DNA of 64,000 nucleotides from Thermodesulfobacterium sp. TA1. GTDB lineage: Bacteria; Desulfobacterota; Thermodesulfobacteria; Thermodesulfobacteriales; Thermodesulfobacteriaceae. Shown piece by piece: positions 17,996 to 54,218 of the stretch. Position numbers and translations under genes: made by a program. The DNA is taken from the NCBI RefSeq assembly GCF_008630935.1, contig NZ_CP043908.1, positions 1,240,001 through 1,304,000 on the forward strand, written 5' to 3'. The notes under the pieces were generated by a model, which saw only the letters and a list, made by a program, of their open reading frames with translations, had not been told where the DNA came from and made no database searches. Position 1 is the first letter of the stretch. The number at the start of each line of letters is the position of its first letter.

Positions 17996-18023
17996 TTGAC
18001 CTAAAGGAAATAATGATTAAACT
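17996..18023 (+). promoter_or_regulatory. Weak candidate promoter before ffh
   Basis: TTGACC, 16 bases, then TAAACT, about 40 bases before the ffh ATG. The -10 is poor. It is offered because the following five-gene run needs a start nearby. Confidence 0.35.
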
Positions 18024-18066
18024 TTAAAAACATATCAAAACATTGTTAAAAAAAGAGGGGTAGAAG

Positions 18067-19395
18067 ATGCTTGAAGGATTAAGTCAAAGGTTGGAAGAGG
18101 CTTTAAATAAGTTTAAAGATAAAGGAAAACTTAGTCCTGATGAGATAAAAAAAGGATTGAGAGAAATACGTCTGGCTTTGCTTGAGGCAGACGTTAATTA
18201 TAAGGTAGTAAAAGATTTTATAGGAAGGGTTGAGGCAAGGTGTCTTTCTTCTGAGGTAACCGAAAGTCTTACCCCCTTTCAGCAAGTGGTAAAAATCGTT
18301 TATGAAGAACTGGTTAAAACCCTTGGAGAAGAGGCCAAAGGGCTTGACCTTGGCGGACCTAAGCCAGCCAGAATTTTACTGGCTGGTCTTCAAGGTTCTG
18401 GAAAAACTACCACCGCGGCTAAACTAGCAAGATATTTAAAAAAGAAAGGCCATCACCCTTTACTTGTGTCTGCTGACATTTATCGTCCTGCAGCTATAGA
18501 GCAACTTAAGGTCCTTTCTCAAAAGATAGAAGTACCTTTTTATGAAGCCAAACCTGGGGAAACACCTATAGAAATCGTCAAAAATGCCATAGAAATGGCT
18601 AAAAAAGAAGGAAGAGATGTAGTCATTATAGATACGGCTGGTAGATTGCATATAGACGAAAGATTGATGGAAGAGTTGATCGAGCTTAAAAAAGCCTTTA
18701 ATCCTTCAGAGGTGCTATTGGTAGCTGACGCTATGATGGGACAAGATGCGGTAAACGTTGCTAAAACTTTTCAAGAAAAGGTAGGGGTAACAGGTATTAT
18801 TCTTACCAAGATGGAAGGAGACGCAAGAGGTGGTGCTGCTCTTTCTATAAAGGAAATAACCGGTTGTCCTATCAAATTTTTGGGAGTAGGAGAAAAAGTA
18901 GATGCCTTAGAGGTCTTTCATCCTGAAAGGCTTGCAGGTAGGATCCTTGGAATGGGAGATGTTCTAACCTTAATAGAAAAAGCTCAGGAAACCTTTGACC
19001 TTAAGAAGGCTAAGGAGCTTGAAAAGAAAATTAAAAAACTTGAGTTTGATTTAGAAGACCTAAGAGAACAACTTAGGCAGATTAAAAAATTAGGCTCTGT
19101 GAGAGATATCCTTGGCTTTTTACCAGGGGTTGGTAAAAAATTAAACCAGCTTGAGTTTGACGAAAAAGAGATTTTAAGGATGGAAGCCATCATCAACTCT
19201 ATGACTAAACAAGAAAGAAAAAATCCTAAAATTATCAATGCAAGCAGAAAAAGAAGAATAGCCAAAGGTAGTGGAACCACCGTCCAAGACGTAAACAAAC
19301 TGCTAAGAAGTTATGAAGAAATGCTTAAACTTTTAAAACAAATGAAAACACCAGGAAGATTGCAGCAAGTCTTTAGAAGAATGTTTGGGGCTTAA
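18067..19395 (+). CDS. ffh: Signal recognition particle protein Ffh
   Basis: Ffh binds SRP RNA and signal sequences to bring membrane proteins to the translocon. The N domain covers about residues 1-95, and the GTPase domain has GLQGSGKTTTAAKLARYLKK (from about 107), DTAGRLHID and TKMEGDARGGAA. The methionine-rich M domain follows with the RNA-binding segment near SMTKQERKNP and RKRRIAKGSGTTVQDVN. Length (442) is standard. It heads ffh-rpsP-khpA-rimM-trmD, a common arrangement. No SRP RNA gene is visible nearby. Confidence 0.97.
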   Translation: MLEGLSQRLEEALNKFKDKGKLSPDEIKKGLREIRLALLEADVNYKVVKDFIGRVEARCLSSEVTESLTPFQQVVKIVYEELVKTLGEEAKGLDLGGPKPARILLAGLQGSGKTTTAAKLARYLKKKGHHPLLVSADIYRPAAIEQLKVLSQKIEVPFYEAKPGETPIEIVKNAIEMAKKEGRDVVIIDTAGRLHIDERLMEELIELKKAFNPSEVLLVADAMMGQDAVNVAKTFQEKVGVTGIILTKMEGDARGGAALSIKEITGCPIKFLGVGEKVDALEVFHPERLAGRILGMGDVLTLIEKAQETFDLKKAKELEKKIKKLEFDLEDLREQLRQIKKLGSVRDILGFLPGVGKKLNQLEFDEKEILRMEAIINSMTKQERKNPKIINASRKRRIAKGSGTTVQDVNKLLRSYEEMLKLLKQMKTPGRLQQVFRRMFGA

Positions 19396-19400
19396 AACAA

Positions 19401-19428
19401 TTGTAAAAAATAAAATAGGTGTTAAAAT
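19401..19428 (+). promoter_or_regulatory. Candidate promoter before rpsP
   Basis: TTGTAA (19401-19406), 16 bases, TAAAAT (19423-19428) lies in the 70-base gap after ffh and could give extra transcription of the ribosomal and tRNA-modification genes. Confidence 0.45.
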
Positions 19429-19465
19429 ATTAAAGCTAAAAATTTTTTAAGGAGGTAGGGGAAAA

Positions 19466-19717
19466 GTGCCAGTCAGGATAAGACTTATGAGATTTGGAAG
19501 AAAAAAGAAGCCTTTTTATAGGGTAGTGGCAGCAGACTCTCGTTCTCCCAGAGACGGAAAGTTTTTAGACATCTTGGGATATTATGACCCTTTAAAACAA
19601 CCTTATGAGTTTAAAATAAACGAAGAAAAGGTTAAAACTTGGCTTGAAAGAGGAGCTGAACCTACAGAGACGGTAAGAGCCCTTCTGAAGAGGATAGGGA
19701 TAAAGGTAGACAAATAA
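19466..19717 (+). CDS. rpsP: 30S ribosomal protein S16
   Basis: S16 is a small-subunit protein needed for 30S assembly. The GTG start is set by a strong AAGGAGGT ribosome site 9 bases upstream and by the universal opening MPVRIRLMRFGRKKKPFYRVV. The RSPRDGKFLDILGYYDP segment is also typical. The length is 83 residues. khpA follows 39 bases later. Confidence 0.97.
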   Translation: MPVRIRLMRFGRKKKPFYRVVAADSRSPRDGKFLDILGYYDPLKQPYEFKINEEKVKTWLERGAEPTETVRALLKRIGIKVDK

Positions 19718-19756
19718 CGCGCAAATCCAAACTGCTAGGAGATAGGAGGGTAGAAG

Positions 19757-19996
19757 ATGAGCAAACTCAAAGATTTAGTGGAGAACATCGCTAAAGTGCT
19801 GGTTGATAAGCCAGAGTCAGTTCAGATTAACGAAATAGAAGGGGAACAAACCTCTGTTATTGAATTAAGGGTTGCCAAAGAAGACCTTGGTAAAATCATA
19901 GGCAAAGAGGGTCGCACTGCTAAAGCTATTAGAACCATCTTAGGGGCTGCAGGCAGTAAACTTCGTAAAAGAGTTGTGTTAGAAATCATCGAATAG
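19757..19996 (+). CDS. khpA: KH-domain RNA-binding protein KhpA (YlqC)
   Basis: A single KH domain of 79 residues with the RNA-binding GxxG loop in [16 protein letters not shown]. The KhpA family acts with KhpB on small RNAs and cell elongation in Firmicutes, and its role here is inferred. The position between rpsP and rimM is the conserved one. The stop TAG shares a base with the rimM GTG start. Confidence 0.93.
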
Positions 19997-20511
19997 TGAA
20001 AGTCCCCTTTGCTAAAATCTTAAACACCCATGGACTTAAGGGAGAGGTAAAAGTCTCTCCCTTGGTCTTATCTTCTGAGCTTATTTTTCAAATTGAAAAA
20101 TTCTATTTATCTGAAGCTTCTTATGAAGAACTATGGGTCGAATCTATTAAAAAAGGTCCTGGTTTTAATGTTTTTATAGTAAAGTTTAAAGACATAGACT
20201 ATGAAAAAGCAAAAACCCTTACCAACCAAAAGCTTTATGTAAGTTTAGAAGACTTGCCTCAACCTTTAGAAGACGAATTTTATTATTATCAGATTGAAGG
20301 TTTTTCAGTAAAAGATCTTTCAGGTAAGGTTTGGGGTAAAGTAAAAGAAGTTATGCCGATGGGAGAATATGACCTTTTGTTGGTCAAAACTAAAGAAGGT
20401 TTTGAATTTTATGTGCCTCTGGTGGGAGAATATGTAATAGAACTAGACTTTTCTAACCAAAGTATCTTGGTGCAAAACATAGAAGATTTGGTAGAAGCTC
20501 AAAAACCTTAG
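19996..20511 (+). CDS. rimM: 16S rRNA processing protein RimM
   Basis: RimM binds S19 and helps mature the 30S head. The 171-residue protein has the N-terminal barrel opening FAKILNTHGLKGEVKV and a PRC-barrel C-terminal half (DEFYYYQIEGFSV, then VPLVGEYV). The GTG start overlaps the khpA stop by one base, so the two are probably translated together. Its order between khpA and trmD is standard. Confidence 0.95.
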   Translation: MKVPFAKILNTHGLKGEVKVSPLVLSSELIFQIEKFYLSEASYEELWVESIKKGPGFNVFIVKFKDIDYEKAKTLTNQKLYVSLEDLPQPLEDEFYYYQIEGFSVKDLSGKVWGKVKEVMPMGEYDLLLVKTKEGFEFYVPLVGEYVIELDFSNQSILVQNIEDLVEAQKP

Positions 20512-20526
20512 TTTTTAATAATAATC

Positions 20527-21834
20527 ATGAGAATAGACATCATTACCATCTTTCCCGAATATTTTGAAAGCCCTTTAAAAGTTGGTCTTTTAGGAAAGGC
20601 TTTAAAAAAAGGACTTTTAGAGGTTAACCTGTTTAACTTACGAGATTTTTGTCAAGACAAACATCGTGTGGTTGACGACGAACCCTTTGGTGGTGGAGAG
20701 GGAATGGTTTTTAAACCAGAGCCTCTTTACCGAGCTATAAATTTTCTTAAAGAAAAAAGTCCTAATCCTTGGGTGATTTATCTCTCTCCACAAGGAGAAT
20801 TGTTAAACCAAAAAATAGCCGAAGACCTTGCTCGGAAAAAACATTTAATACTTGTTTGTGGAAGGTATGAAGGGATAGATGAAAGGATAAAAGACTGCTT
20901 GGTAGACCAAGAAATCTCTATAGGAGATTATGTGGTTTTTGGCGGTGAAGTAGCAAGTTTAGTCTTAATTGAATGTGTAGCCAGGCTAATACCGGGAGTG
21001 GTAGGGAAAAAAGACTCGGTAGAAAGAGAATCTTTTTCTTCTGGACTTTTAAAATATCCCTGTTATACCAGGCCAAGTGAGTTTATGGGGTTAAAGGTCC
21101 CAGAAGTACTTCTAAGCGGAAACCATGCAGCCATAGAAGCCTATAGAAGACAAAAATCTTTAGAATTGACCCTTAAAAAAAGACCTCAGCTTTTAAAAGA
21201 GGCTCAACTTTCAAAAGAAGACTTGCAATTTCTGGCTGAGCTTTTAAAAAAACAAAGGGTATATCTCTTTCTTCTTCATTATCCTGTTTATAATAAAAGA
21301 AAAGAAGTTGTAGCCTCAGCTGTCGCTAACATTGACCTTCACGATTTAGCAAGACTTGGAAGAACCTATGGATTAAGGGGAATTTACTTAGTCCAACCCC
21401 TTGAAGACCAAAGACAATTAGCTCAAGAGCTTTTAACTTTTTGGCTTGAAGGTGGAGGTGCTAACTATAACCCTCTACGCAAAGAGGCTTTAAAACTATT
21501 AAAAATTTTTTCAACCTTCGAAGAAGCTTTGACTAACGTCCAAGAAATAGAAGGAGAAAAACCTTTATTAGTAGGAACTGATGCTTCACCTAAAAGGAAC
21601 CCCATCTCGTTTGAAGAACTAAGAAATTTTTTATGGGAAAAACCGATAATTATCGTTTTAGGAACAGCCTGGGGCCTCACAGAGGAATTTTTAGAAAAAT
21701 GTGATTATTTCTTAGAACCTATTTGGGGTAGACTTGACCCTTACAACCATCTTTCTGTACGTTCTGCAGCCTCTATCATCATCGATCGCATGTTGGGTTA
21801 TTATAGCTTTTATAGAAAATTTTTATCAAAATGA
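20527..21834 (+). CDS. trmD: tRNA (guanine-37-N1)-methyltransferase TrmD fused to a second RNA-methyltransferase-like domain
   Basis: Residues 1 to about 235 are TrmD, which methylates G37 of tRNAs to prevent frameshifting. The trefoil-knot motifs VVDDEPFGGGEGMV, LVCGRYEGIDERI and SIGDYVVFGGEVA are intact. The protein does not end there: residues about 245-435 form another domain (VYLFLLHYPVYNKRKEVV, then AVANIDLHDLARLGRTYG, then FLEPIWGRLDPYNHLSVRSA) that resembles the SAM-dependent RNA methyltransferase family PF09936. That fusion is known in some deltaproteobacteria and as a separate protein in Thermotoga. The second domain's target is unknown to me. rplS, the usual next gene, is absent here. 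Confidence 0.92.
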   Translation: MRIDIITIFPEYFESPLKVGLLGKALKKGLLEVNLFNLRDFCQDKHRVVDDEPFGGGEGMVFKPEPLYRAINFLKEKSPNPWVIYLSPQGELLNQKIAEDLARKKHLILVCGRYEGIDERIKDCLVDQEISIGDYVVFGGEVASLVLIECVARLIPGVVGKKDSVERESFSSGLLKYPCYTRPSEFMGLKVPEVLLSGNHAAIEAYRRQKSLELTLKKRPQLLKEAQLSKEDLQFLAELLKKQRVYLFLLHYPVYNKRKEVVASAVANIDLHDLARLGRTYGLRGIYLVQPLEDQRQLAQELLTFWLEGGGANYNPLRKEALKLLKIFSTFEEALTNVQEIEGEKPLLVGTDASPKRNPISFEELRNFLWEKPIIIVLGTAWGLTEEFLEKCDYFLEPIWGRLDPYNHLSVRSAASIIIDRMLGYYSFYRKFLSK

Positions 21835-21931
21835 TTGATTTTTACCAAAAATAGATTATTTGTTTTTATTGAATTTTTTTTAAGAATGATGATGTCAATT
21901 ATAAACTTTAAAAATTATCTAGGAGGGACTT

Positions 21932-23386
21932 ATGAGAAAGATCAATAAAGTGTTGATAGCCAACCGGGGAGTTCCTGCAGTAAGGGTGATGAATACCTGC
22001 AGAGATAAAAAGATTAAAACTGTTGCTATCTATAGTACGCCTGACAGACTGGCCTACCATGTATTTTTAGCTGATGAAGCGGTACATATTGGAGAGGCAC
22101 CTCCTCATGATTCTTATTTAAACATGGAAAAAATTATAAAAGTTGCCTTAGAAACGAAATGTGATGCAATACATCCTGGATGGGGCTTTTTAGCAGAAAA
22201 CGCTGACTTTGCCGAACTGGTAGAACAGGCTGGCCTTGTATGGATAGGCCCTCCTCCTGAGGTCATAAGGCTTATGGGAGATAAAATCAGGGCAAAGAAG
22301 ATAGCCCAAAGGGCAAACGTGCCTACCATTCCCGGACTTTTAAACGTAAAAACAGTAGAAGACATTTTAAAATGGATGCAAGAAGACGAAGTAGATTTTC
22401 CCATCATGATAAAAGCCGCCTCTGGTGGTGGCGGAAAAGGAATGGTAAGGGTTGAAAGCGCAGAAGAATTACCTATAGCCCTTGAAAAGGCAAAATCGGA
22501 AGCTAAAAAAGCCTTTGGAGATGAGACCCTTTTAGTAGAAAAGTATATTAAAAGCGGTAGACATATAGAGGTCCAAGTTTGTGCCGACAAGCACGGACAT
22601 GTAGTACATCTTTTTGAAAGAGAATGCACCTTGCAAAGAAGAAATCAAAAAATCTTAGAAGAAGCACCTTCCCCAAGCATCTCCGATGACTTAAGACAAG
22701 AAATATGTTTTACAGCCGTAAGGTTGATGAGAGAAATAGGTTATCACTCAGTAGGAACGGTAGAATTTCTGTTAGACCCTAAAACCAACAAATTTTATTT
22801 TCTTGAGGTTAACACTAGGCTTCAAGTAGAGCATGGTGTTACTGAATTAATTACCGGACTTGATTTAGTAAGCCTGATGTTCTCTATCGCTGAAGGTCAT
22901 CCCCTTCCATTTGAACAAGACGACATACATCCTAACCGTCATGCCATAGAAGTAAGAATTAACGCCGAAGACCCTAAAACCTTTAATCCTTCTTTTGGTA
23001 CCATCACCAGACTTGAAATTCCTCAAGGTCCAGGGATAAGGGTTGCCTCTGGAGTTTATGAAGGAGCAGATGTTCCTCCCTATTACGACTCGCTTATCAT
23101 GTTGGTTATGTCAGCCGGGGCAGACAGAACAGAAGCTATCAGAGTAATGGACAGAGCTTTAAGCCGAGGATTAAGGGTAGAGGGAATAAAAACCATCGCC
23201 CCGTTGCTTTTAAGCATCATCAGACATCCTGACTTCATAGAAGGTAAATTTTCTACCAGGTTTATAGAGGAAAGGCACGAAGAGCTTCTTTCTATGGTAA
23301 AAGAAAAAACAGCAGACGATGAAGTTTTAAAAATTGCTAGGTATGTAGCAGAAATTTCAGCCTTAGGGCCTCAAGATTGGATGTAA
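21932..23386 (+). CDS. Biotin carboxylase subunit (PycA/AccC type)
   Basis: The enzyme carboxylates biotin with ATP and bicarbonate. The 484-residue ATP-grasp protein has KAASGGGGKGMV, ERECTLQRRNQKILEEAPS, FLEVNTRLQVEHGVTELITG and the Lys/Arg residues expected for catalysis. One departure is seen at the start: the usual IANRGEIA is IANRGVPA, so the conserved glutamate is replaced. The gene is 28 bases before the carboxyltransferase subunit, so the pair is taken as a two-subunit 2-oxoacid carboxylase, most simply pyruvate carboxylase. A strong AGGAGGG ribosome site precedes the ATG. Confidence 0.88.
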   Translation: MRKINKVLIANRGVPAVRVMNTCRDKKIKTVAIYSTPDRLAYHVFLADEAVHIGEAPPHDSYLNMEKIIKVALETKCDAIHPGWGFLAENADFAELVEQAGLVWIGPPPEVIRLMGDKIRAKKIAQRANVPTIPGLLNVKTVEDILKWMQEDEVDFPIMIKAASGGGGKGMVRVESAEELPIALEKAKSEAKKAFGDETLLVEKYIKSGRHIEVQVCADKHGHVVHLFERECTLQRRNQKILEEAPSPSISDDLRQEICFTAVRLMREIGYHSVGTVEFLLDPKTNKFYFLEVNTRLQVEHGVTELITGLDLVSLMFSIAEGHPLPFEQDDIHPNRHAIEVRINAEDPKTFNPSFGTITRLEIPQGPGIRVASGVYEGADVPPYYDSLIMLVMSAGADRTEAIRVMDRALSRGLRVEGIKTIAPLLLSIIRHPDFIEGKFSTRFIEERHEELLSMVKEKTADDEVLKIARYVAEISALGPQDWM

Positions 23387-23414
23387 AATTACATTCCACA
23401 CATGGGGGTAAAAA

Positions 23415-25484
23415 ATGGATTACGTGTTTGTAAAACCGGGGATGAGCCCAAGAGAGATAGTTCAAAAAGTAAGAGAATTGCCTGGAGTATGTTTTGTTTC
23501 TGTAGGAATGAGAGATGCAGGACAGTCTGACTATAAAAACAGATTAAGGATATATGACTTAAAAACTCTTGCTCCTTACTATAATGAAATGGGACTTTTT
23601 GCGGCAGAATGCCATGGAGGGGCAAGATGGCATGTAGGTATTATGAATAGAAGAGAAAGCCCTTTTGAAGAGATAGCCATTCTAAGAGAACTTATGCCTA
23701 ACGTCCTCTTACAAACCCTTATAAGAGAAACCAACATGTGGGGTTATAGACCTTATCCTAAAAACATCATAGAATATGTAGTAGAAGTAGTAGATATAGA
23801 TGTATGGAGGTGTTTTTCCTTCTTAAACGATATAAGAAACATGCGTCCTGTAGCTGAAGTGGTGATGAAAAGAGGGAGGCTCTTTGAACCTGCCATTTCC
23901 TACACAGTAGCCCCTTGGTTTGATACCAAGTATTACCTTAAGGTAGTAGATGAGATAGTAGACCTCTGCGGTGGGGTAGATGAAATAGTATTATGTATTA
24001 AAGACATGGCTGGAGTAGGAACAGTCTCTTCGATTACCGAGCTTATAGATGCCATAAAACAAAAATACCCTGATTTGGTAATCAACTACCATCGTCATAT
24101 CACCGACGGTCTTGCTATTCCTGTGCTTTTAGCCGCTGCTAAAGCAGGAGCTAAGATCATAGATGTAGAAGAGGATACTTTGGTAAGGTTTTACGGCCAT
24201 TCTCCTATCTTAGCGGTTGAGGCTATTTTCAGAGAAGAAGGTATTCCTGTCAACCTTAACAGAAAGGCTTCAGAACAAGCTGTAGAAAAAGTAAGAGAAT
24301 GGATAAGAGATTATGAATGGGCTGAATCTCCTTTCAAAGGTTTTGACCACATGGTCACCAGACATAAGATGCCAGGAGGAGCCTTCCCAAGCTCCTTTGA
24401 ACAGGCAGAAAAAGGGGGATTCCTAAACCTCATGCCTTATATCCTTCAAGTCATGTCCCTTTACAACCAAATAGTAAAATATTTTGATGTTACTCCAGGG
24501 TCACAAATCACTTGGGTAACCTGTAGCGGTATCGTTAACAGATACGCTAAAGAAATGGGAGAAGAAGGGGTTAAACACGTAATAAAACTTCTTAAAAAAT
24601 TTGTAGAAGAAAAGAACCAAGATTTTTCAGCGATGGAACCTTGGGAACAAGAAGAACTTTTACAATTGTTTAAACACGCTCCAGGAGACTTCAAAAATCT
24701 TATCCTTGGTCATTACGGAAGGATGCCCGTAGGTTGGCCTGCTGACTGGGTGTATAAAAGTACCTTTGGAGATGATTGGGAAAACAAAATAAAAGAGAGA
24801 AAAGAAACCTCACCTGTGGAGGCTATTCCTGACGAAGACATAGAAGCTTTAAGAAAAAATTTAGAAAATGAACTTGGGAGAAAGGCTACTGAAGAAGAGT
24901 TTATCCTATATCTGATGCACCCTAAAGATGCTTTAGATTTTATAAGATTTAGAGAAAAATACGGAGATGCTCCTTTAGTTCTTCCTACCAGAGTATGGAG
25001 AGAAGGGCTCAAAAAACCAGGAGATAAAGTTGAATTTATCTATGAAGGAAAACCCTATTGCATAGAATTAGTCTCTATAGGTGTCGAAAACGACGGTGTA
25101 ATACATGTAGTCTTAAAGGTAAACAATAAAACCAGGGTGTTTGAGGTGAAAACCCCAAGAGCTAAAAAAGAAGAGGTCAAAAAGGCAGTAAGACCTGATG
25201 AAATAGGAGCACCTATCAGCGGAACAGTTTGGAGGATAGGTAATCCAAAAAGAGGAACGCTTAAGGTAGGAGACATCGTCCATAAAGGAGAAGAAATCGC
25301 TAACTTAGAATCGATGAAAATGGAAAACCCTGTTTTAGCACCCTTTGACGCCCAAATCGTAGAAATTTGTGTGAAACTTAATCAAATGGTAGAAGAAGGG
25401 CAACTACTCTTTGTGCTTAAGCCCTTAGAAAACACTAATTCAGGAAATACAGGAGAGACCAACATAGAAAAATTGCCCCATTAG
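23415..25484 (+). CDS. Carboxyltransferase subunit with C-terminal biotin domain (PycB/OadA-like, divergent)
   Basis: The 689-residue protein has a TIM-barrel carboxyltransferase domain (about 20-300), a linker/PYC-OADA region, and a biotinyl domain with the biotin site ESMKMEN (Lys635). Expected metal ligands are present: Asp34 in RDAGQS, Lys196 in CIKDMAG (carbamylated in relatives), and His226/His228 in YHRH. Other landmarks differ from the usual pyruvate carboxylase/oxaloacetate decarboxylase pattern: ECHGGARWHV instead of E-WGGATFD, YHRHITDG instead of HTHDTSG, and FYGHSP where relatives have a catalytic threonine in G-TS-PP (His262 here). Pyruvate is the likeliest substrate, but another 2-oxoacid is possible. 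Confidence 0.8.
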   Translation: MDYVFVKPGMSPREIVQKVRELPGVCFVSVGMRDAGQSDYKNRLRIYDLKTLAPYYNEMGLFAAECHGGARWHVGIMNRRESPFEEIAILRELMPNVLLQTLIRETNMWGYRPYPKNIIEYVVEVVDIDVWRCFSFLNDIRNMRPVAEVVMKRGRLFEPAISYTVAPWFDTKYYLKVVDEIVDLCGGVDEIVLCIKDMAGVGTVSSITELIDAIKQKYPDLVINYHRHITDGLAIPVLLAAAKAGAKIIDVEEDTLVRFYGHSPILAVEAIFREEGIPVNLNRKASEQAVEKVREWIRDYEWAESPFKGFDHMVTRHKMPGGAFPSSFEQAEKGGFLNLMPYILQVMSLYNQIVKYFDVTPGSQITWVTCSGIVNRYAKEMGEEGVKHVIKLLKKFVEEKNQDFSAMEPWEQEELLQLFKHAPGDFKNLILGHYGRMPVGWPADWVYKSTFGDDWENKIKERKETSPVEAIPDEDIEALRKNLENELGRKATEEEFILYLMHPKDALDFIRFREKYGDAPLVLPTRVWREGLKKPGDKVEFIYEGKPYCIELVSIGVENDGVIHVVLKVNNKTRVFEVKTPRAKKEEVKKAVRPDEIGAPISGTVWRIGNPKRGTLKVGDIVHKGEEIANLESMKMENPVLAPFDAQIVEICVKLNQMVEEGQLLFVLKPLENTNSGNTGETNIEKLPH

Positions 25485-25487
25485 CCC

Positions 25488-25515
25488 TTGATTTTTAAGA
25501 CAAAAGTTTTATAAA
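25488..25515 (+). promoter_or_regulatory. Candidate promoter for the HIT gene
   Basis: TTGATT (25488-25493), 16 bases, TATAAA (25510-25515), followed about 25 bases later by an AGAGGGAGGG ribosome site. Confidence 0.45.
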
Positions 25516-25550
25516 TTTTTTTAAAAAACCCTTGTTTAGAGGGAGGGAAT

Positions 25551-25892
25551 ATGAGTTGTATTTTCTGTAAAATAGCTACTCAAGAGATACCTGCTAAGGT
25601 GGTGTATGAAGACGAAAAGGTGATAGCCTTTCATGACATCAACCCTCAAGCCCCTTATCATATATTAGTAATTCCAAAAAAACATCTTTCTACTTTGTTA
25701 GAACTCACCGAAGAGGATAAAGAACTGATAGGGCACATATATCTGGTTATCAATCAAATCGCTAAGGATTTAGGGTTTGCTGAAAGGGGATACAGGGTAG
25801 TAGTAAACTGTAAAGAAGAGGCAGGACAGACGGTGTTTCATCTGCATTTTCATGTGCTTGCCGGTAGAGGTATGGGTTGGCCTCCAGGATAA
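25551..25892 (+). CDS. HIT-family nucleotide-binding protein (HinT-like)
   Basis: Small hydrolase-fold protein of 113 residues with the histidine triad HLHFHVLAG near the C-terminus and the family start CIFCKIATQEIPAKVVYED. HinT relatives remove AMP from nucleoside phosphoramidates. Its cellular role here is unknown. A very strong AGAGGGAGGG ribosome site precedes the ATG. It ends 10 bases from the stop of metG on the other strand. Confidence 0.94.
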   Translation: MSCIFCKIATQEIPAKVVYEDEKVIAFHDINPQAPYHILVIPKKHLSTLLELTEEDKELIGHIYLVINQIAKDLGFAERGYRVVVNCKEEAGQTVFHLHFHVLAGRGMGWPPG

Positions 25893-25902
25893 TTTTAAAA
25901 AT

Positions 25903-27786
25903 TTAACTTACTTTAGCCCCTGGGGCTATTTCTTTCTCAGGGGCAACCAAGCATAGCCCTTTATCATCCTTAGCTGCAAGGAGCATTCCTTCAGAAAGAA
26001 CTCCTTTTATTTTAGATGGCTTTAGGTTGGCTATAATGACTACTTCTTTTCCTATCAACTCTTCTGGTTTATAATATTGAGCTATTCCTGAAACGATCTG
26101 TCTTTTTTCTGGGCAGAGAACCTCCAATTTTAAAAGCTTATCTGTATTAGGAATTTTTTCTGCAGCCACTATTTTTCCTACCCTTAAGTCAAGTTTTTTG
26201 AACTCCTCTATGGAAATAAAACTCTTCTCTTCGGTTTTTTGCTCTGACACCGTTTCCTCCTTTGGCTTTTCTTCTATTCTTGGAAAAAGAGGACTACCTT
26301 TTTTAGCTTCTGTCCCTTCTTTTAATCCCTTAAAGTTAAAAACCTCTTCCCAAGTTAAGGGGCCTTTATAAGAAAGGTTTTGGAGTAAAACCGATGAAGT
26401 TTCAGGCATTATCGGAGAAAGGGCTATAGCAAAACTTTTAATAACCTCAAGCAAAATCCTAAGCACCGTTCCTGCCCTGTTTAGTTCTCCTTTTTTAATA
26501 AGACTCCACGGGGCCTGTCTGTCTATGTAAACGTTTCCTTCTCTGATTGCCTCCCACAACCTTTCTAAAGCGCGATGAAACTGAAGCTCAGCAAAAAGTT
26601 GGTGATATTCCTCTAAAGCTCTTTTTACTAAGTCTAAGTAGGCTTGGTCTTCCTCTTTAATCTCACTTAAAGGAGGAATTTGAGATTTAAAGTATTTTTC
26701 CGTTAGGTTTAAGGTACGGTAAATAAGGTTTCCGTAATCATTAGCAAGGTCCGCGTTTATCCTGGTTATAAAGGATTCCAAACTAAACTCTGCGTCATAA
26801 CCAAAGGCCATTTCTCTAAACAAAAAATATCTTAGTCGGTCTTTACCATAGGTTTTACTTAAAGTAATCGGGTCTACGATGTTTCCCAATGACTTAGACA
26901 TCTTTAGCTTATCAACCAACCAATAGCCATGCACCAAAAGTTTTTTGTATACCGGTAGGCCTAAAGCTTTTAACATAATAGGCCAATAAACCGCATGAGG
27001 TTTCAAGATGTCTTTAGCTATAAAATGATGGGCCTCTTTCCACCAACCCTCCCATTTTGGGTCTTCTGGATACCCTATTCCTGTTAAATAGTTTAAAAGG
27101 GCATCAAACCATACATAGGTTACATAATCTTTATCAAAAGGAAGTTCAATACCCCACTCAAGCCTTTTTTTGGGACGAGAGATACAAAGCGGAGGTAGCT
27201 CTTCCTCTAACATGTTAAGCACTTCTTCTCGATAAAATTGAGGATAAATAAGCTCATTTTGCAGAATATACTCTTTTAGCCAGGTGCGATATTTTTCTAA
27301 ATTAAAAAAGTAGTTTTTTTCTCTAATCAATTCAGGGGTTTTTTGATGGTCCCTACACCTTCCTTGTTCGTCAAGTTCTTTAGCGGTTAAAAATCTTTCA
27401 CAACCTACGCAATAAAGTCCTTCATATTCGTCTTGATAGATTTCTCCTTTTTCGTAAAGCTGCTGAAGGACTGCTTGCACTACCTTTTTATGTTTTTCTT
27501 CGGTAGTTCTAATAAACCGATTATAAGAAACCCCAAAATAATCCCAAGTTGTTTTAAAAATTTGGCTTATTTCATCTACTAAAGCCTGAGGGGAAAGACC
27601 TTTATCTTTTGCGGTTTTTTGAATTTTGTCTCCGTGCTCATCTGTTCCTGTAAGGAAAAAAACCTGCCAATTTTTAAGTCTGTAAAACCTGGCAAACCCA
27701 TCTACTAACAAGGTGGTATAAGCATGACCTAAATGGGGAAAGGAGTTTACATAATAAATCGGGGTAGTAAGATAGATAAGCATCAA
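25903..27786 (-). CDS. metG: Methionyl-tRNA synthetase with C-terminal tRNA-binding domain
   Basis: MetG charges both initiator and elongator tRNA-Met. The 627-residue protein has the HIGH-type motif in FPHLGHAYTT, the KMSKS motif in KLKMSKSLGN, one zinc-binding knuckle (CVGCERF with CRDH, a C-x2-C / C-x2-H form like that of Thermus), and a C-terminal EMAP-like tRNA-binding domain from about residue 525 (FKKLDLRVGKIVAAEKIPN). Its start overlaps the ricT stop by 4 bases. It ends the long minus-strand run that begins at the initiator tRNA. Confidence 0.96.
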   Translation of the reverse strand: MMLIYLTTPIYYVNSFPHLGHAYTTLLVDGFARFYRLKNWQVFFLTGTDEHGDKIQKTAKDKGLSPQALVDEISQIFKTTWDYFGVSYNRFIRTTEEKHKKVVQAVLQQLYEKGEIYQDEYEGLYCVGCERFLTAKELDEQGRCRDHQKTPELIREKNYFFNLEKYRTWLKEYILQNELIYPQFYREEVLNMLEEELPPLCISRPKKRLEWGIELPFDKDYVTYVWFDALLNYLTGIGYPEDPKWEGWWKEAHHFIAKDILKPHAVYWPIMLKALGLPVYKKLLVHGYWLVDKLKMSKSLGNIVDPITLSKTYGKDRLRYFLFREMAFGYDAEFSLESFITRINADLANDYGNLIYRTLNLTEKYFKSQIPPLSEIKEEDQAYLDLVKRALEEYHQLFAELQFHRALERLWEAIREGNVYIDRQAPWSLIKKGELNRAGTVLRILLEVIKSFAIALSPIMPETSSVLLQNLSYKGPLTWEEVFNFKGLKEGTEAKKGSPLFPRIEEKPKEETVSEQKTEEKSFISIEEFKKLDLRVGKIVAAEKIPNTDKLLKLEVLCPEKRQIVSGIAQYYKPEELIGKEVVIIANLKPSKIKGVLSEGMLLAAKDDKGLCLVAPEKEIAPGAKVS

Positions 27787-28658
27787 GCCTCCTCCTCTTC
27801 AAGGGTCTTAAGTTGACCTTCAGGGATAAAATCTTCGGTATGCTCGACAATATAAGACTTTAAATCTTCAACCGGCACAGTAATCAGTTGTCCATCTTTT
27901 GTTTCTAAATAAACCAACTTTTGAAAAAGATGGTACTTTACTACACGATAGGATTCCTCGTTAATCTTGATTTTACTTCCCAATTTAGGAAGGTTATCTA
28001 AAAATTCCCGATAAACTTCCATCTCATAACTAAGACAACATAATAACCTTCCACAAGGACCAGATATCTTGTTAGGGTCAAGGATAAGACCTTGTTCTTT
28101 GGCAAACTTGATAGAAAGGGGTACAAAGGATTTTAAAAACTTAGCACAACAAAACTCCTTTCCACAATATCCTATACCTCCCAAAAGGGCGGTTTCATTT
28201 CTTACCCCTATCTGCCTCATTTCTATTCTCATCCTTAAAGCTCTGGCTAACTCCTTTACCAACTGTCTAAAATCAATCCTCCCATCTGCGGTATAAAAAA
28301 ATATGATTTTGCTTCGGTCAAAAAAACAATCTACCCTAACCAACTTCATCTCAAGTCCAAGTTCCTTAGCAAACTGAAGACAAAACTCCCTACCCTTTTC
28401 TTCTATTTCTAATTTTTTTTCAAACTCCCTGATTTCTTTTAAAGTAGCCTTTCGCAAAACCACAGGTATTCCTTCTACATCAAAAGGAATCTTGTAAGAA
28501 ACTTCGGTAAGTAGCAAAACTTCGTTTCTTCCGTCGGGCATCTCTGCCAGCACATAGGTACCTTTAGAAAGGGGCTTAGTAAGTTTTACTGCCATATCAG
28601 GATATCCCTGTTTTAAAGTCCCAGCACTCAACCAAACTTGAACTTCTTTATTTTCCAT
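27783..28658 (-). CDS. ricT: PSP1-domain protein RicT (YaaT family)
   Basis: The 291-residue protein has the PSP1 core with conserved cysteines in GGIGYCGKEFCCAKFL and GPCGRLLCCLSYE, which hold iron-sulfur clusters with RicA and RicF in Bacillus. In Firmicutes the complex affects RNase Y and sporulation. The role in this lineage is not established. Its position next to metG matches the conserved ricT-metG neighbourhood, although moaA rather than holB lies upstream here. Confidence 0.9.
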   Translation of the reverse strand: MENKEVQVWLSAGTLKQGYPDMAVKLTKPLSKGTYVLAEMPDGRNEVLLLTEVSYKIPFDVEGIPVVLRKATLKEIREFEKKLEIEEKGREFCLQFAKELGLEMKLVRVDCFFDRSKIIFFYTADGRIDFRQLVKELARALRMRIEMRQIGVRNETALLGGIGYCGKEFCCAKFLKSFVPLSIKFAKEQGLILDPNKISGPCGRLLCCLSYEMEVYREFLDNLPKLGSKIKINEESYRVVKYHLFQKLVYLETKDGQLITVPVEDLKSYIVEHTEDFIPEGQLKTLEEEEA

Positions 28659-29618
28659 CTAACCTCCGATAGCTCTCATAGGTTTTAAAGTAGAGTTTAG
28701 ATTATGCCTTTCAGGCTTTACCTTTAGAGCTTGAATAAAAAGCTCCTCTAATGAAACCTTTTTTTCCCTTAAAGCGGTTTTTAAGTTTATCTCAAAGTCT
28801 GAAAAAAGACAAGTCCTTAACCTACCATCAGCCGTAATCCTAAATCGGTTGCATCTATGACAAAAATGCTCAGAAATTGGTGAAATAAGTCCTATTTTCC
28901 CTTTAGCACCCTTCCATCTAAAAACCTTTGCAGGCCCCCCTCCTACCGAATTAGCAGGTAAAAGTGGTTGGTATGCCTCTAAAATCTTTTTAATCTCTAC
29001 CACCTCTACTATATGGCTCTCATCCCAAAGAGAATTTCCACCTATAGGCATAAATTCAATAAACCTTACCTCTATGGGCTTTTCTATGGTTAGCTTAGCT
29101 AAGTCTAAAACCTCTTCGTCGTTGAATCCTCTTATAACCACCACGTTAACCTTAACCGGTGAAAAACCAAGTTCTAAAGCTAAGTCTAAACTTCTTATCA
29201 CCTTTTCAAAACCATCAACCCCTGTAATTTTTCGAAACTTTTCTGGATTAAGGGTATCTAAACTAAGGTTTAACCTTTTTAAACCTGCTTTTTTAAGCTT
29301 TTCTCCTAACTCCTCAAGAAAATATCCGTTTGTCGTAAGGCTTAAATCTTCTATCCCGGTTATAGAAGCAATCCTTTCTACTAAAACTTCTATGTTTTTT
29401 CTAATCAAAGGTTCTCCCCCAGTAAGTCTTACCCTTTTAACCCCAAGCTTAGCCCCTACCCTTACCACCTCTTCTATCTCTTCCAACCTAAGTATTTCCT
29501 GATGGGGTAACCATTTCCAATTTTTATGAGTAAAGCAATAGATACACCTGAAATTACATTTGTCGGTTACCGATATCCTAAGGTATTCTATCTTTCTTCC
29601 AAAAGGGTCTATCAACAT
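28659..29618 (-). CDS. moaA: GTP 3',8-cyclase MoaA (molybdenum cofactor biosynthesis)
   Basis: MoaA is the radical-SAM enzyme that starts molybdopterin synthesis from GTP. The N-terminal cluster cysteines are 21, 25 and 28 (CNFRCIYC), followed by RLTGGEPLIRKN. The C-terminal cluster is in CHRCNRFRITADGRLRTC, and the protein ends in the characteristic Gly-Gly (AIGG). At 319 residues it is normal. It overlaps the upstream DUF4416 gene by 7 bases and abuts ricT. No other moa or moe gene is in the window. Confidence 0.95.
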   Translation of the reverse strand: MLIDPFGRKIEYLRISVTDKCNFRCIYCFTHKNWKWLPHQEILRLEEIEEVVRVGAKLGVKRVRLTGGEPLIRKNIEVLVERIASITGIEDLSLTTNGYFLEELGEKLKKAGLKRLNLSLDTLNPEKFRKITGVDGFEKVIRSLDLALELGFSPVKVNVVVIRGFNDEEVLDLAKLTIEKPIEVRFIEFMPIGGNSLWDESHIVEVVEIKKILEAYQPLLPANSVGGGPAKVFRWKGAKGKIGLISPISEHFCHRCNRFRITADGRLRTCLFSDFEINLKTALREKKVSLEELFIQALKVKPERHNLNSTLKPMRAIGG

Positions 29619-30145
29619 CCTTTTCTCTTTCTTAACTCCTTATAAACATCTCTTGCCTGGTTAAAAACCGGGATAAAAGCCTGATAATCTGGATAGGTCC
29701 AAGGAAGAGGCACGAAACTTTTATCTCTATAAATCAACGTCACCTCAGCAAAAACACTTCGACCTAAGTAAACCCTATGGGCATAGTCTTTAAAGGTTGA
29801 AAGCACTACCTTAGAAAGCTCTATATACCCTGGGTCAAGGTTTATACTCCTTTTCCCAGACTCAGTAGTATAACTAAGCTCTATTTGATAACAAAGGTGT
29901 TTTAAATCTACCAAAAAATCAGGGCTTTTTAGGTTTTCAAAAAAATAAAATCTTTTTTTCAAGTCTTTTCCCATCTCTTTTTCGTAATAAGAGGTAAAAG
30001 AAGAAAAATCAAAGGGTTCAGAAGAAAAAAACATCGGTCCCAGATGCGAGGTCAAATGAGTAAGAGCTTGTTCTCCCAAAAAAAGGTCTTGAGTGGTTAA
30101 AGCTATAAAAAAACAAACAGGAGCAGGTTGTCTTGGATGACTCAT
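29612..30145 (-). CDS. DUF4416 family protein
   Basis: A 177-residue soluble protein of the DUF4416 family, recognised from the GPMFFSSEPFDFSSFTSYYEKEMG segment and the INLDPGYIELSKVVLSTFKDYAHRVYLG segment. No biochemical role is known to me. The family is widespread in thermophilic and sulfate-reducing deltaproteobacteria and Aquificae-like lineages. It lies between a Trm112 gene (1 base away) and moaA (7-base overlap). Confidence 0.85.
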   Translation of the reverse strand: MSHPRQPAPVCFFIALTTQDLFLGEQALTHLTSHLGPMFFSSEPFDFSSFTSYYEKEMGKDLKKRFYFFENLKSPDFLVDLKHLCYQIELSYTTESGKRSINLDPGYIELSKVVLSTFKDYAHRVYLGRSVFAEVTLIYRDKSFVPLPWTYPDYQAFIPVFNQARDVYKELRKRKGC

Positions 30146-30146
30146 G

Positions 30147-30341
30147 TCAAGAGGTTAAGTTTTCTATTTTTAAAGCCTCTTCAACCAACATCACCGGAAT
30201 GTCCTCTATTACCGGATAAAAAAGCTTGCAAACCTTACAATAAAACCCTTCTTTGTCTTTAAAGTTTAAAAACTCTAAATCGCCTTTGCACTTAGGGCAA
30301 GCAAGCACTTCTAAATAAACTTTAATTCTTTCTTGGTCCAT
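30147..30341 (-). CDS. Trm112 family zinc-binding protein
   Basis: The 64-residue protein has two zinc-binding pairs, Cys15/Cys18 (CPKC) and Cys35/Cys38 (CKVC), and ends with the family segment [17 protein letters not shown]. Trm112 proteins activate methyltransferases in eukaryotes and archaea, while bacterial copies (YcaR/YbaR) have less clear roles. DUF4416 follows immediately. Confidence 0.9.
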
Positions 30342-30354
30342 GTCTTATATAATA

Positions 30355-32241
30355 TCATGTTTCAATTTTTACGCAATTTTTCCCTGACCTTTTAGCCAAA
30401 TAAAGGGCTGAGTCTGCCCTTTTAATTAGTTCTGAAACCTCTTCGGTTAAAAGGTACTCACTTACCCCTAAGCTTATGGTAACTTTAATCTTATTAACCC
30501 CTATCTCTAATTCTTCTACCGCGGTTCTTAATTTTTCTGCTACCATCACGGCGTTTTTCAGGTCTGTTTCTGGTAAAACTACGATAAACTCTTCTCCCCC
30601 CCAACGGCCAACTACATCTTGTTCCCTAAGGTTATTTTTAAAAGTCTCAGCCAAAGCTTTTAAAACCTCATCCCCTACATCATGACCATAGATGTCGTTT
30701 ACCCTCTTAAAATTGTCTATGTCTATCATTATCACAGAAAAAGGTTGTTTGGTTTCCTCAGCTTTTTGTTTAAGACTTTCTAACACAGTAGACACAAACC
30801 TTCGATTAAACAACTTGGTAAGTGGGTCGGTAATAGATTCTAAATAAAGTGCGTCTTCCAACTTTTTCCTTAAAGTTATATCCCAAAAACAAACGATAGA
30901 CTCTATAACCTTTCCTGATTCATCTTTTACCTGAGACACCTTAACGTTGGCTATCAAATAACTACCGTCCTTCCTCTTCAAAACCAAATCACCTTCCCAG
31001 TCCTCTCCCTTAGCTATAGCCTCACATATCAAACATTTATGTTCTAACAGCTCTACAAAAACCTCATGGTCCCTTTTCCCTATCAACTCCTTTTCCGAAT
31101 AACCTAAAAGTTTAAGAAGTTTAGGATTAACCAGGGTAATTTTAAAATCCTTTACCGTATAAACCGAGATTTCCATAAAATTAAGAACCACGTTTAATCT
31201 TTTTCTTTCTAAGAATACCTCCCTTGCCTTCTTATTGGTATAAAAAGAAACAAGCAGTATCAAAATCAATAAAAAGGTATACCCCCAGAAGTTTTTATAA
31301 AAATCTTTATATAAGGCTTCAAGCTCTTTTGCTTGCCTTATATTCAACAAAAACCCTACCGTATCCCCCTTAAAGTCCGTAATAGGAATAAGAACTACCT
31401 CATAAACCTCTCCCTTTTTAGGCCTAAACTCAAAAACCTGATTTTTTTCTAAATACAAAGCCTTTTTAAAAGCCGGTTCTTGAGATAACTTTTTTAGAAT
31501 ATCTTTATAAAAGATTTCATTTTTTGAACTTGCTTGGTATTCTACCCAATCCTCCCCTAAAAAACTTAGAGAAAACTGCTTTTTATAAGGTTCTAAAAGT
31601 TTGTCTACCGTTTCTTTTTTCTTAAAAATAAACCTACAACATAGGTCTGGACTCAGTTCTTTGACCAACCTTTCAAAATGGCCAACCGAAACCACAAAAT
31701 CTGCACTTCCTAAATATTCTTCCTTCTCATCCATCAAAGGCACGGTGTATCTAAACCCACTTAAAACCTTTCCTGATGCAAACCCAAAAACCGGTCTTTT
31801 ATGTTTCATCACATATCTTAAATCCTCTCTCTCCCTCGTAAGGTCGTCTCCATAAACAGAAGGATTATAGATCCTTAAAAGACTTCTTCCATCAGAGGTG
31901 TGAAAATGCAAGTCTAACCCTAAATCAGGAAATTTCTGAATAAAAGGTAAAAGAAACTGGTAAAGCCTATTTCTTAAGACTTCTTCATCTCCTTTATAAC
32001 TTTTAAAAAGGTTTTGTATACTTTGAGACGCTACTATCCCTGTAACATAAAGTTGGGTTAGCCTTTTTATAGAATTAATCGTAGAATTATACATGACAAT
32101 ACGGTCGTTTAAATTGTTTTCAAGAATAGTCTGTTTTTGTGATGAAAAGTTATTATAAAGAACCCCTATCCCTAAAATCCAACCCCAAAAAATCAACCCT
32201 AAAATAACACCATAAGACTTATAAAATAATAATTTTTTCAT
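30355..32241 (-). CDS. Membrane diguanylate cyclase with periplasmic sensor, PAS and GGDEF domains
   Basis: The protein makes cyclic-di-GMP. From the ATG at 32241 it has 628 residues: a membrane segment (about 12-33), a large periplasmic Cache-like sensor domain (about 45-305), a second membrane segment (about 320-340), a PAS domain (about 355-470) and a C-terminal GGDEF domain with the active site GGEEF (about 548) and an intact inhibitory RxxD site five residues before it (REQD). A longer frame begins at a TTG at 32289, but the extra residues carry no ribosome site and the ATG gives a normal membrane start. The ligand sensed is unknown. It follows two small unknown genes. Confidence 0.9.
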   Translation of the reverse strand: MKKLLFYKSYGVILGLIFWGWILGIGVLYNNFSSQKQTILENNLNDRIVMYNSTINSIKRLTQLYVTGIVASQSIQNLFKSYKGDEEVLRNRLYQFLLPFIQKFPDLGLDLHFHTSDGRSLLRIYNPSVYGDDLTREREDLRYVMKHKRPVFGFASGKVLSGFRYTVPLMDEKEEYLGSADFVVSVGHFERLVKELSPDLCCRFIFKKKETVDKLLEPYKKQFSLSFLGEDWVEYQASSKNEIFYKDILKKLSQEPAFKKALYLEKNQVFEFRPKKGEVYEVVLIPITDFKGDTVGFLLNIRQAKELEALYKDFYKNFWGYTFLLILILLVSFYTNKKAREVFLERKRLNVVLNFMEISVYTVKDFKITLVNPKLLKLLGYSEKELIGKRDHEVFVELLEHKCLICEAIAKGEDWEGDLVLKRKDGSYLIANVKVSQVKDESGKVIESIVCFWDITLRKKLEDALYLESITDPLTKLFNRRFVSTVLESLKQKAEETKQPFSVIMIDIDNFKRVNDIYGHDVGDEVLKALAETFKNNLREQDVVGRWGGEEFIVVLPETDLKNAVMVAEKLRTAVEELEIGVNKIKVTISLGVSEYLLTEEVSELIKRADSALYLAKRSGKNCVKIET

Positions 32242-52736: not shown

Positions 52737-54218
52737 ATGAAAATTCCAAGGGTTATGTCTACCCAACATCCTGACAATGTTTCCATGCCTTTTTTTGCAG
52801 AACATCCTGACATGTCAGGTGAAGACGAAATCCAAGAGGCTTACTACGCCTTTTCTCACTTAGGTTGTGATGAACAGATGTGGGACAGTGAAGGAAAAGA
52901 GGTAGACGACTTTGTCGTAAAAAAACTCTACAGTAAATACCCAACCTTTTTTAAGAAACACCTATTAGGAAGAGACTGCTTTATCACCCTGAGGGTTCCC
53001 AATCCAACCGTAGAAAAAGACGAAGCTAAAATCTTGGTTGAGGCCTTAGAAAGCATCCCTCGATCTATGGATGCAGCTCGGGTGTTTTTAAAAGACCATC
53101 CCCCTCCTATTTTTGAAGTCATCCTTCCGATGACCACCTCTGCCAAAGAGCTTAATCGGATTTATTATTACTATAAAAATTTTATTGCAGGACTGCAACA
53201 TCATCCTATCTATCCAGGAGACATTACCATAGCCGAATGGGTAGGAGAGTTTTTACCGGAAACCATCAACGTTATCCCCCTTTTTGAAAACATAGAATCC
53301 TTTTTCGGGGTCGACCAAATTTTAGAAGAATACTTAAAAGATAAAAATTTTAATTATCTTAGGGTATTTTTAGCCCGTTCTGACCCAGCTTTAAACTATG
53401 GACTGGTAAGTGCGGTGTTAGGGGTAAAGGTAGCCTTAAAAAAGCTGGAAAAACTTTCTCTTAACCGCGAGGTAGAAATTTATCCTATCTTAGGGGTAGG
53501 AACTCCTGTTTTTAGAGGTAATTTTTCTCCTTATACCGTTGAGAAGGTACTTTCTGAATATTCTTCGGTAGAGACCTTTACCGTTCAGTCTGCCTTTAAG
53601 TACGACTTTCCGGTAGAAGATGTCATCGCAGCGGTTAAGAAAGTAAAGACCTTTATAAGGCATCCTATCCCAGAAATAGATGTAGCTTTTTGTGAAAGGC
53701 TCATCCAAAAGATTTCAGAAGAGTATAGGGCTACCATAGCACCTCTTGCCCCTGCAATAAACGAGATAGCTAAATATGTACCTAAACGGAGGATGAGAAA
53801 GCTTCACATAGGACTTTTTGGTTATTCCAGAAGTCTGCATGGGATAGTCCTTCCCAGGGTTATAAGCTTTTGTGCTGCCTGCTACTCTATAGGCCTTCCT
53901 CCTGAAATTTTTGGTTTAAGTGCTTTAACCAAAGAGGAATTACAGGAGCTTAAAAATTATTATCAAAACTTAGAATTCGACCTGTCTAAGGCCCTACAAT
54001 ACTTTAACCCTAAATGTTTAGACCTTATGCCTGAAGACGTAAAAACTAAACTCATAAAAACATTAAACCTGCTAAACACTTTAAGCCTTAACTACGACTC
54101 TAACGAAGAGCATAAAGAGGTAACCTCTGCCATGTTAAAAAACTTAAAAGCTGGGCTTTCTTCTCAAACCACCAACCTGATAATAGAAGCTGGTTATTTA
54201 CGAAAATTTTTAGGTTAA
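52737..54218 (+). CDS. ppcA: Phosphoenolpyruvate carboxylase, archaeal type
   Basis: The enzyme makes oxaloacetate from PEP and bicarbonate. At 493 residues it is about half the size of ordinary bacterial PEP carboxylase and matches the archaeal-type family: the opening IPRVMSTQHPDNVSMPFF, then EIQEAYYAFSHLGCDEQMWD, GVGTPVFRGNFSP, and GLFGYSRSLHGIVLPRVISF. Such genes are scattered in a few bacteria and are thought to have come from archaea. It lies after DUF4911 and ends 6 bases from aroC on the other strand. A second C4-forming enzyme is encoded at 21932-25484. Confidence 0.93.
   Translation: MKIPRVMSTQHPDNVSMPFFAEHPDMSGEDEIQEAYYAFSHLGCDEQMWDSEGKEVDDFVVKKLYSKYPTFFKKHLLGRDCFITLRVPNPTVEKDEAKILVEALESIPRSMDAARVFLKDHPPPIFEVILPMTTSAKELNRIYYYYKNFIAGLQHHPIYPGDITIAEWVGEFLPETINVIPLFENIESFFGVDQILEEYLKDKNFNYLRVFLARSDPALNYGLVSAVLGVKVALKKLEKLSLNREVEIYPILGVGTPVFRGNFSPYTVEKVLSEYSSVETFTVQSAFKYDFPVEDVIAAVKKVKTFIRHPIPEIDVAFCERLIQKISEEYRATIAPLAPAINEIAKYVPKRRMRKLHIGLFGYSRSLHGIVLPRVISFCAACYSIGLPPEIFGLSALTKEELQELKNYYQNLEFDLSKALQYFNPKCLDLMPEDVKTKLIKTLNLLNTLSLNYDSNEEHKEVTSAMLKNLKAGLSSQTTNLIIEAGYLRKFLG

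Follow-up and report, generated by a model that had tools for sequence, protein, structure and literature searches.

Pyruvate carboxylases (PC) are described both as single chains, as in R. etli, L. lactis and human, and as two subunits, as in M. flagellatus and P. aeruginosa. For the bacterial two-subunit form, a passage of PMC5059739 gives a beta subunit of 600–620 aa and an alpha subunit ending in a hydrophobic, mainly alanine helix. The carboxyltransferase (CT) chemistry turns on a threonine: according to an excerpt of PMC5895798, oxamate-induced oxaloacetate decarboxylation is wholly lost in Thr882Ala R. etli PC, and in L. lactis PC, as described in part of PMC9581989, the hydroxyl of the threonine (Thr867) touches both pyruvate and biotin, Ser870 interacts with biotin, and Arg606 is the counterpart from which the role of R. 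etli Arg621 is taken.

The window analyzed here, a stretch of 64,000 nucleotides from Thermodesulfobacterium sp. TA1, contains a pair of genes for a biotin-dependent carboxylase with unusual motifs in its CT subunit (table 1). We conclude, with a probability of roughly 0.8, that the pair encodes an ATP- and biotin-dependent PC of an old and divergent form, found in about a third of the sampled Thermodesulfobacteriota/Desulfobacterota genomes.

Table 1. Features of the gene pair and of a PEP carboxylase gene, in window coordinates (R. etli PC numbering in brackets)
Feature	Position	Strand	Details and basis
Biotin carboxylase (alpha) subunit	21932..23386	+	484 aa; Pfam Biotin_carb_N, CPSase_L_D2, Biotin_carb_C
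Carboxyltransferase + biotin-carrier (beta) subunit	23415..25484	+	689 aa, ATG start; ORF list, Pfam, NF009554 alignment
Asp34, metal ligand (Asp549)	23514..23516	+	alignment
His73 (Asp590)	23631..23633	+	Asp in five solved PC/OadA/5S rows; His in 73/73 distinct cores
Arg104 (Arg621, pyruvate/oxaloacetate contact)	23724..23726	+	alignment; role from part of PMC9581989
Tyr111 (Tyr628)	23745..23747	+	alignment
Lys196, expected carboxylated lysine ligand (Lys718)	24000..24002	+	alignment
His226-Arg-His228, metal ligands (His747, His749)	24090..24098	+	alignment
FYGHSP, residues 259–264, variable loop after barrel strand 8	24189..24206	+	alignments and model; not the catalytic-threonine site
Thr360 in VTPGSQ, intact catalytic threonine (Thr882)	24492..24494	+	three alignments
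Lys635, predicted biotinylation site, in ESMKMEN	25317..25319	+	within Biotin_lipoyl 596–668; nearly invariant
Archaeal-type PEP carboxylase	52737–54215	+	PF14010, 619 bits

Gene pair, family scores and fold

The alpha gene lies upstream of the beta gene with a gap of 28 bases, and biotin carboxylase (BC), CT and biotin-carrier (BCCP) parts are thus all present on adjacent genes, whose products we predict to form a complex. Pfam recognizes PYC_OADA and Biotin_lipoyl in the beta subunit, with a weak HMGL-like match (26.3 against a cut-off of 29). The host genome is a single contig of 1.83 Mb in which the beta subunit is the sole PYC_OADA match, and its nearest named relatives belong to Thermodesulfobacterium species (89–96% identity). 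These gene and domain assignments, like those of single residues below, come directly from sequence and model comparison.

Aligned to the 1147-position PC model NF009554, alpha covers positions 3–483 and beta 520–1146, so that the joined chain runs from 3 to 1146. Placed end to end the subunits score 1014.6 bits, above the cut-off of 965 (588.8 and 430.2 alone), and two natural single-chain relatives also exceed it (1254.5 and 1098), the family name in itself being no test of activity. TIGR01235 (cut-off 1114.45) is reached neither by the joined pair (777.7) nor by these two single chains (614.5 and 650.1).

An enzyme running mainly as an oxaloacetate decarboxylase or transcarboxylase would account for the likeness of FYGHSP to the loops of V. 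cholerae OadA-2 (TYGHP) and transcarboxylase 5S (GPGHNP). The BC gene 28 bases upstream argues for a carboxylase instead, as do scores far below the equivalog cut-offs for OadA (TIGR01108, 240.7 of 756.5) and 5S (160.1 of 827); nor was a decarboxylase membrane subunit recognized by eye among the ORFs at 18000–31000. We regard this alternative as very unlikely, and the specific identities of Na+-pumping decarboxylase and 5S subunit were rejected on the distance from those cut-offs.

The AlphaFold2 model of the beta subunit (mean pLDDT 88.5) ranks PCs first among solved folds. It superposes on L. lactis PC (5vyw_A) from its first residue on, with Z 51.5 and an rmsd of 2.1 over 537 residues. The match to the M. 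flagellatus beta subunit has Z 44.5 and an rmsd of 22.4 over 524, the latter suggesting a domain shift. Matches to 5S (Z 44.4) and OadA-2 (Z 42.9) exclude nothing.

Metal site and catalytic threonine

The first-pass annotation, made from the DNA alone, named Asp34, Lys196, His226 and His228 as metal ligands, and all four align with the R. etli ligands. The kept catalytic set comprises Arg33, Asp34, Gln37, Arg104, Tyr111, Lys196, His226, His228, Thr360 and Ser363, which includes, besides the metal site, the counterparts of Thr882, Ser885 and Arg621. To count residues across the subfamily, 102 pooled rows, query included, were reduced to 73 distinct CT cores, with L049 and all canonical and outgroup rows set aside; only totals are used, the automatic clade labels of this set being unreliable, with clade IV mixed into other groups. 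Gln552, Arg621, Tyr628, Lys718, His747 and Ser885 are each present in all 73 cores. Arg548 and Asp549 are found in 72/72, the remaining row starting past Arg33/Asp34, and His749 occurs in 70 of 73, with Cys in the other three.

Three motifs had been singled out as departures from the PC pattern: ECHGGARWHV (65–74), YHRHITDG (225–232) and FYGHSP (259–264, with His262). All three are present, and since they are identical or nearly so in close relatives (a comparison that passed over L001 and L002, the query itself, and to which L051 added no ORF match), they are not products of chance or sequencing error. What the annotation built on the third motif, namely that it stands where relatives carry the proton-shuttling threonine and that a catalytic residue has changed, does not survive alignment. 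Chain numbers in 2qf7_A run 11 ahead of the literature (Asp549 is 560, Lys718 is 729, His747 is 758, His749 is 760; the match begins at residue 537), so Thr882 is chain residue 893, in KVTPSSK. The query's VTPGSQ aligns with VTPSSK, and Thr360 and Ser363 therefore match Thr882 and Ser885, about 100 residues past the stretch used in the earlier reading. The three-residue spacing agrees with that of Thr867 and Ser870 in L. lactis, a separate profile–profile alignment (30 subfamily against eight canonical rows) also pairs Thr360 with Thr882, and the threonine is kept in 72 of the 73 cores, with Ser in one.

FYGHSP instead forms, in the model, a loop from barrel strand 8 (248–252) to the next helix (265–274), where Tyr260 aligns with the threonine of SGNTSQP, R. 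etli Thr781. Solved PC, oxaloacetate decarboxylase and transcarboxylase already differ in this stretch, which reads EGASLP in M. flagellatus PC, GTYGHP in V. cholerae OadA-2, to which the query's YGH is close, and LGPGHNP in P. shermanii 5S. The idea that His262 has replaced the catalytic threonine and altered proton transfer had a by-eye alignment in its favor; set against the pairing of Thr882 with Thr360 in three alignments and against the letters just quoted from solved enzymes, it is most improbable, and loss of the catalytic threonine was rejected on residue numbering and the same alignments. As the M. flagellatus PC, OadA-2 and 5S rows show, the letters at SGNTSQP cannot serve to diagnose a loss of catalysis, a point of use in annotation.

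His73 and the biotin pocket

Among residues mapped for pyruvate and biotin handling, only Asp590 is altered. Its replacement by His, with Tyr628 kept, holds in all 73 cores on both counts and is the clearest active-site signature of the subfamily. Two further positions differ: Ser752 is Asp (query Asp231) in 73/73 cores, against Ser, Ala or Thr in the five solved rows, and Thr781 is replaced by Tyr in 69/73 and by Phe in 4/73. For two of the three odd motifs, the five solved enzymes themselves differ from one another at the positions concerned; the alignment with these rows was made without L002, L049, L032, L027, L028 and the duplicates L138–L149.

Work by Lietzan and St Maurice (JBC, 2013) is said to have shown that Asp590 and Tyr628 stabilize a biotin pocket induced by pyruvate. 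That study is among the references of PMC5895798, and a structure of the Y628A variant, 4jx6, turned up in the comparison with solved folds. In outgroup rows L054–L056, positions 590 and 628 are occupied by Gln and Leu, and in the few groups seen the two positions appear to differ together, a pattern in the aligned sequences that is suggestive only. Searches of open-licence text found no paper on the subfamily's His at 590 and no match naming Asp590 or Tyr628 with pyruvate carboxylase; among the matches listed for D590 and the biotin binding pocket, nothing bears on His73.

The fixed Asp-to-His change, with the partner tyrosine retained, amounts to a test by nature of the pyruvate-induced biotin pocket that has been proposed. 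One may speculate further that this phylum-wide CT branch has rebuilt the biotin-pocket latch, from Asp590–Tyr628 to His–Tyr, and has gained an invariant Asp231 next to the metal histidines, so altering the admission of carboxybiotin or the 2-oxoacid accepted; a non-pyruvate acceptor could then follow in Thermodesulfobacterium, where PEP carboxylase is able to supply oxaloacetate. We hold this to be rather unlikely.

Phylogeny and distribution

The suggestion of a distinct subfamily, also made in the first-pass annotation, is borne out both by the His at position 590 throughout and by the maximum-likelihood tree, calculated from 51 of 61 rows after 10 near-copies of clade I were dropped. Clades I (with the window's protein), Ib, II (single-chain) and III (about 640 aa) form one deep clade (100/99), and 13 canonical PC, OadA and 5S rows form a separate one (98/96), with the query outside it; the long subfamily stem measures 1.52 changes per column, and a warning was issued by the program that long branches meet.

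A fourth branch, L186–L195 (for example L187:6894–8567, L190:6464–8122 and L194:6195–7829), consists of carboxyltransferases of 545–565 aa that lack a C-terminal biotin domain and are accompanied, at all 10 loci, by a BC gene in the same stretch. The second metal histidine is Cys in three of them, and in one the catalytic Thr is replaced by Ser.

With at most three candidates scored per genome, a subfamily profile matches 127 of 395 sampled genomes of the phylum at a limit of 1e-80, about a third. There was no match in two complete genomes, G309 of the same family and G248 of the same order. At 1e-10 the query itself matches 122 of 148 phylum genomes, many of them lower-scoring at about 24–33% identity. 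Should our reading hold, the PC lineage carried by about one in three of the sampled phylum genomes would have diverged early from the enzymes of solved mechanism. Clade I proteins with 68–76% identity also occur in metagenome bins labeled Nitrospinota, Nitrospirae and Syntrophomonadaceae (L044, L045 and L047), through either gene transfer or misbinning.

Predicted reaction and metabolic context

By analogy with the known PC mechanism, we infer the reaction, the substrate and the following steps. Biotin, attached to Lys635 of the beta subunit, would be carboxylated by the 484-aa alpha subunit from bicarbonate with the use of ATP and would then swing into the barrel. There its carboxyl group would pass to a pyruvate bound through the metal site, Arg104 and Gln37. 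Thr360 would accept and give back the biotin proton, with oxaloacetate as the product, and His73 together with the kept Tyr111 may act as a His–Tyr version of the reported pyruvate-triggered latch.

The first-pass annotation raised the possibility of another 2-oxoacid as substrate, for which we found no positive support. The alternative retains the architecture and changes the acceptor, for example to 2-oxoglutarate as in the two-step reductive TCA cycle of Aquificaceae (Hydrogenobacter); 2-oxoglutarate carboxylase is thought, according to a passage of PMC5441870, to derive from pyruvate carboxylase via gene duplication. The depth of the subfamily and the changed residues around the site would fit. 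We consider it unlikely, given that the mapped pyruvate-handling residues are kept apart from Asp590 and that the joined pair passes the PC equivalog NF009554, and the metabolic setting contributes evidence on both sides.

That setting was surveyed in 25 chosen, non-random subfamily genomes, of which 22, including that of the window, have the subfamily gene as their sole PYC_OADA match. Common PEP carboxylase (PEPC) was found in none of the 25. The archaeal type occurs in eight, the window genome among them (over cut-off in 2/14 controls), Malic_M is above cut-off in 15, and PEP carboxykinase (PEPCK) is above it in six for the ATP type and one for the GTP type, G067 having both. Five genomes (G128, G129, G101, G107 and G004) gave no match to either type of PEPC, to either type of PEPCK or to Malic_M; the subfamily enzyme is the sole C3-carboxylating candidate found there, which favors pyruvate over another acceptor. 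This argument does not apply directly to the window genome, which has PEPC and malic enzyme and whose oxaloacetate supply need not depend on the PC-like pair. That these enzymes may already cover oxaloacetate speaks for another acceptor, and the idea that the pair is this genome's sole source of oxaloacetate was rejected for the same reason. The ATP-citrate lyase citrate-binding domain is present in 4/25 subfamily genomes (G107 included) and 0/14 controls and was not found in the window genome, a further point against that alternative.

The malic enzyme (L137:3465–4874, + strand) has about 95 extra N-terminal residues without a Pfam match at E 0.001.

Elsewhere in the genome (L136:2695–6992, − strand; genome C1 about 895694–899991) lies a divergent acetyl-CoA carboxylase-like set. 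Its members are a BC-like protein of 463 aa (54.5 bits for Biotin_carb_C against a cut-off of 32.4), one of 738 aa matched by both ACCA and Carboxyl_trans, and one of 219 aa whose biotin domain is weak. With this separate set the pair is not needed as the cell's acetyl-CoA carboxylase, and that role was rejected.

In the literature searched, no member of the window's own clade was found to have been assayed, and the passage matched for Thermodesulfobacterium and pyruvate carboxylase deals with ANME archaea.

Comparison with known carboxylases

OadA alpha and 5S share with the query the barrel, the metal site, the catalytic threonine and the loop letters YGH and PGH. They differ in keeping Asp590, in belonging to a separate clade and in equivalog cut-offs that the query falls far short of.

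The clade II single chains belong to the query's own subfamily, with equivalents of His73, Asp231 and Tyr260 and with Thr882 kept. They differ in being one chain, of 1233–1260 aa as called, and in their loops ENGGGAHFHV and VRSYGQGD. At two of the four listed clade II loci (L138 and L139) a PEP synthase-like protein of 1207–1216 aa adjoins the gene, and no such neighbor was seen at L140 and L141. In a table of the proteomics study PMC10920352, seen in part, D. vulgaris DVU_1834 appears as pyruvate carboxylase by annotation, and the numerical neighbors DVU_1833 and DVU_1834 have values of 132.6 and 136.3, taken as kDa; a labeling figure in an excerpt of PMC7547702 is drawn with an anaplerotic PC for D. 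desulfuricans, and an assay of the enzyme appears in neither excerpt. From gene order and size at those two loci, rather than from the sequence of DVU1834, clade II is probably the Desulfovibrio-type PC (DVU1834).

Like the two-subunit PCs of M. flagellatus and P. aeruginosa, the pair has BC and CT–BCCP on separate chains and keeps the catalytic threonine. Unlike them, its beta subunit has 689 aa, and the alpha C-terminal tail, EVLKIARYVAEISALGPQDWM, is by eye not alanine-rich and is like the helix after the BC domain in single-chain PC; M. flagellatus, moreover, keeps Asp590.

The single-chain PCs of R. etli, L. lactis and human share the catalytic residues, the order BC–CT–linker–BCCP and the fold, with Z up to 51.5. 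They have one gene where there are two here, are only about 24–29% identical, belong to the canonical clade outside which the query falls, and carry Asp590, Ser752 and Thr781 where the query has His, Asp and Tyr. Judging from the chain lengths, the coverage of the model and the alpha tail, the simplest view of the chain division is that of a single-chain PC divided at the junction of BC and CT, as opposed to the Pseudomonas/Methylobacillus two-subunit type.
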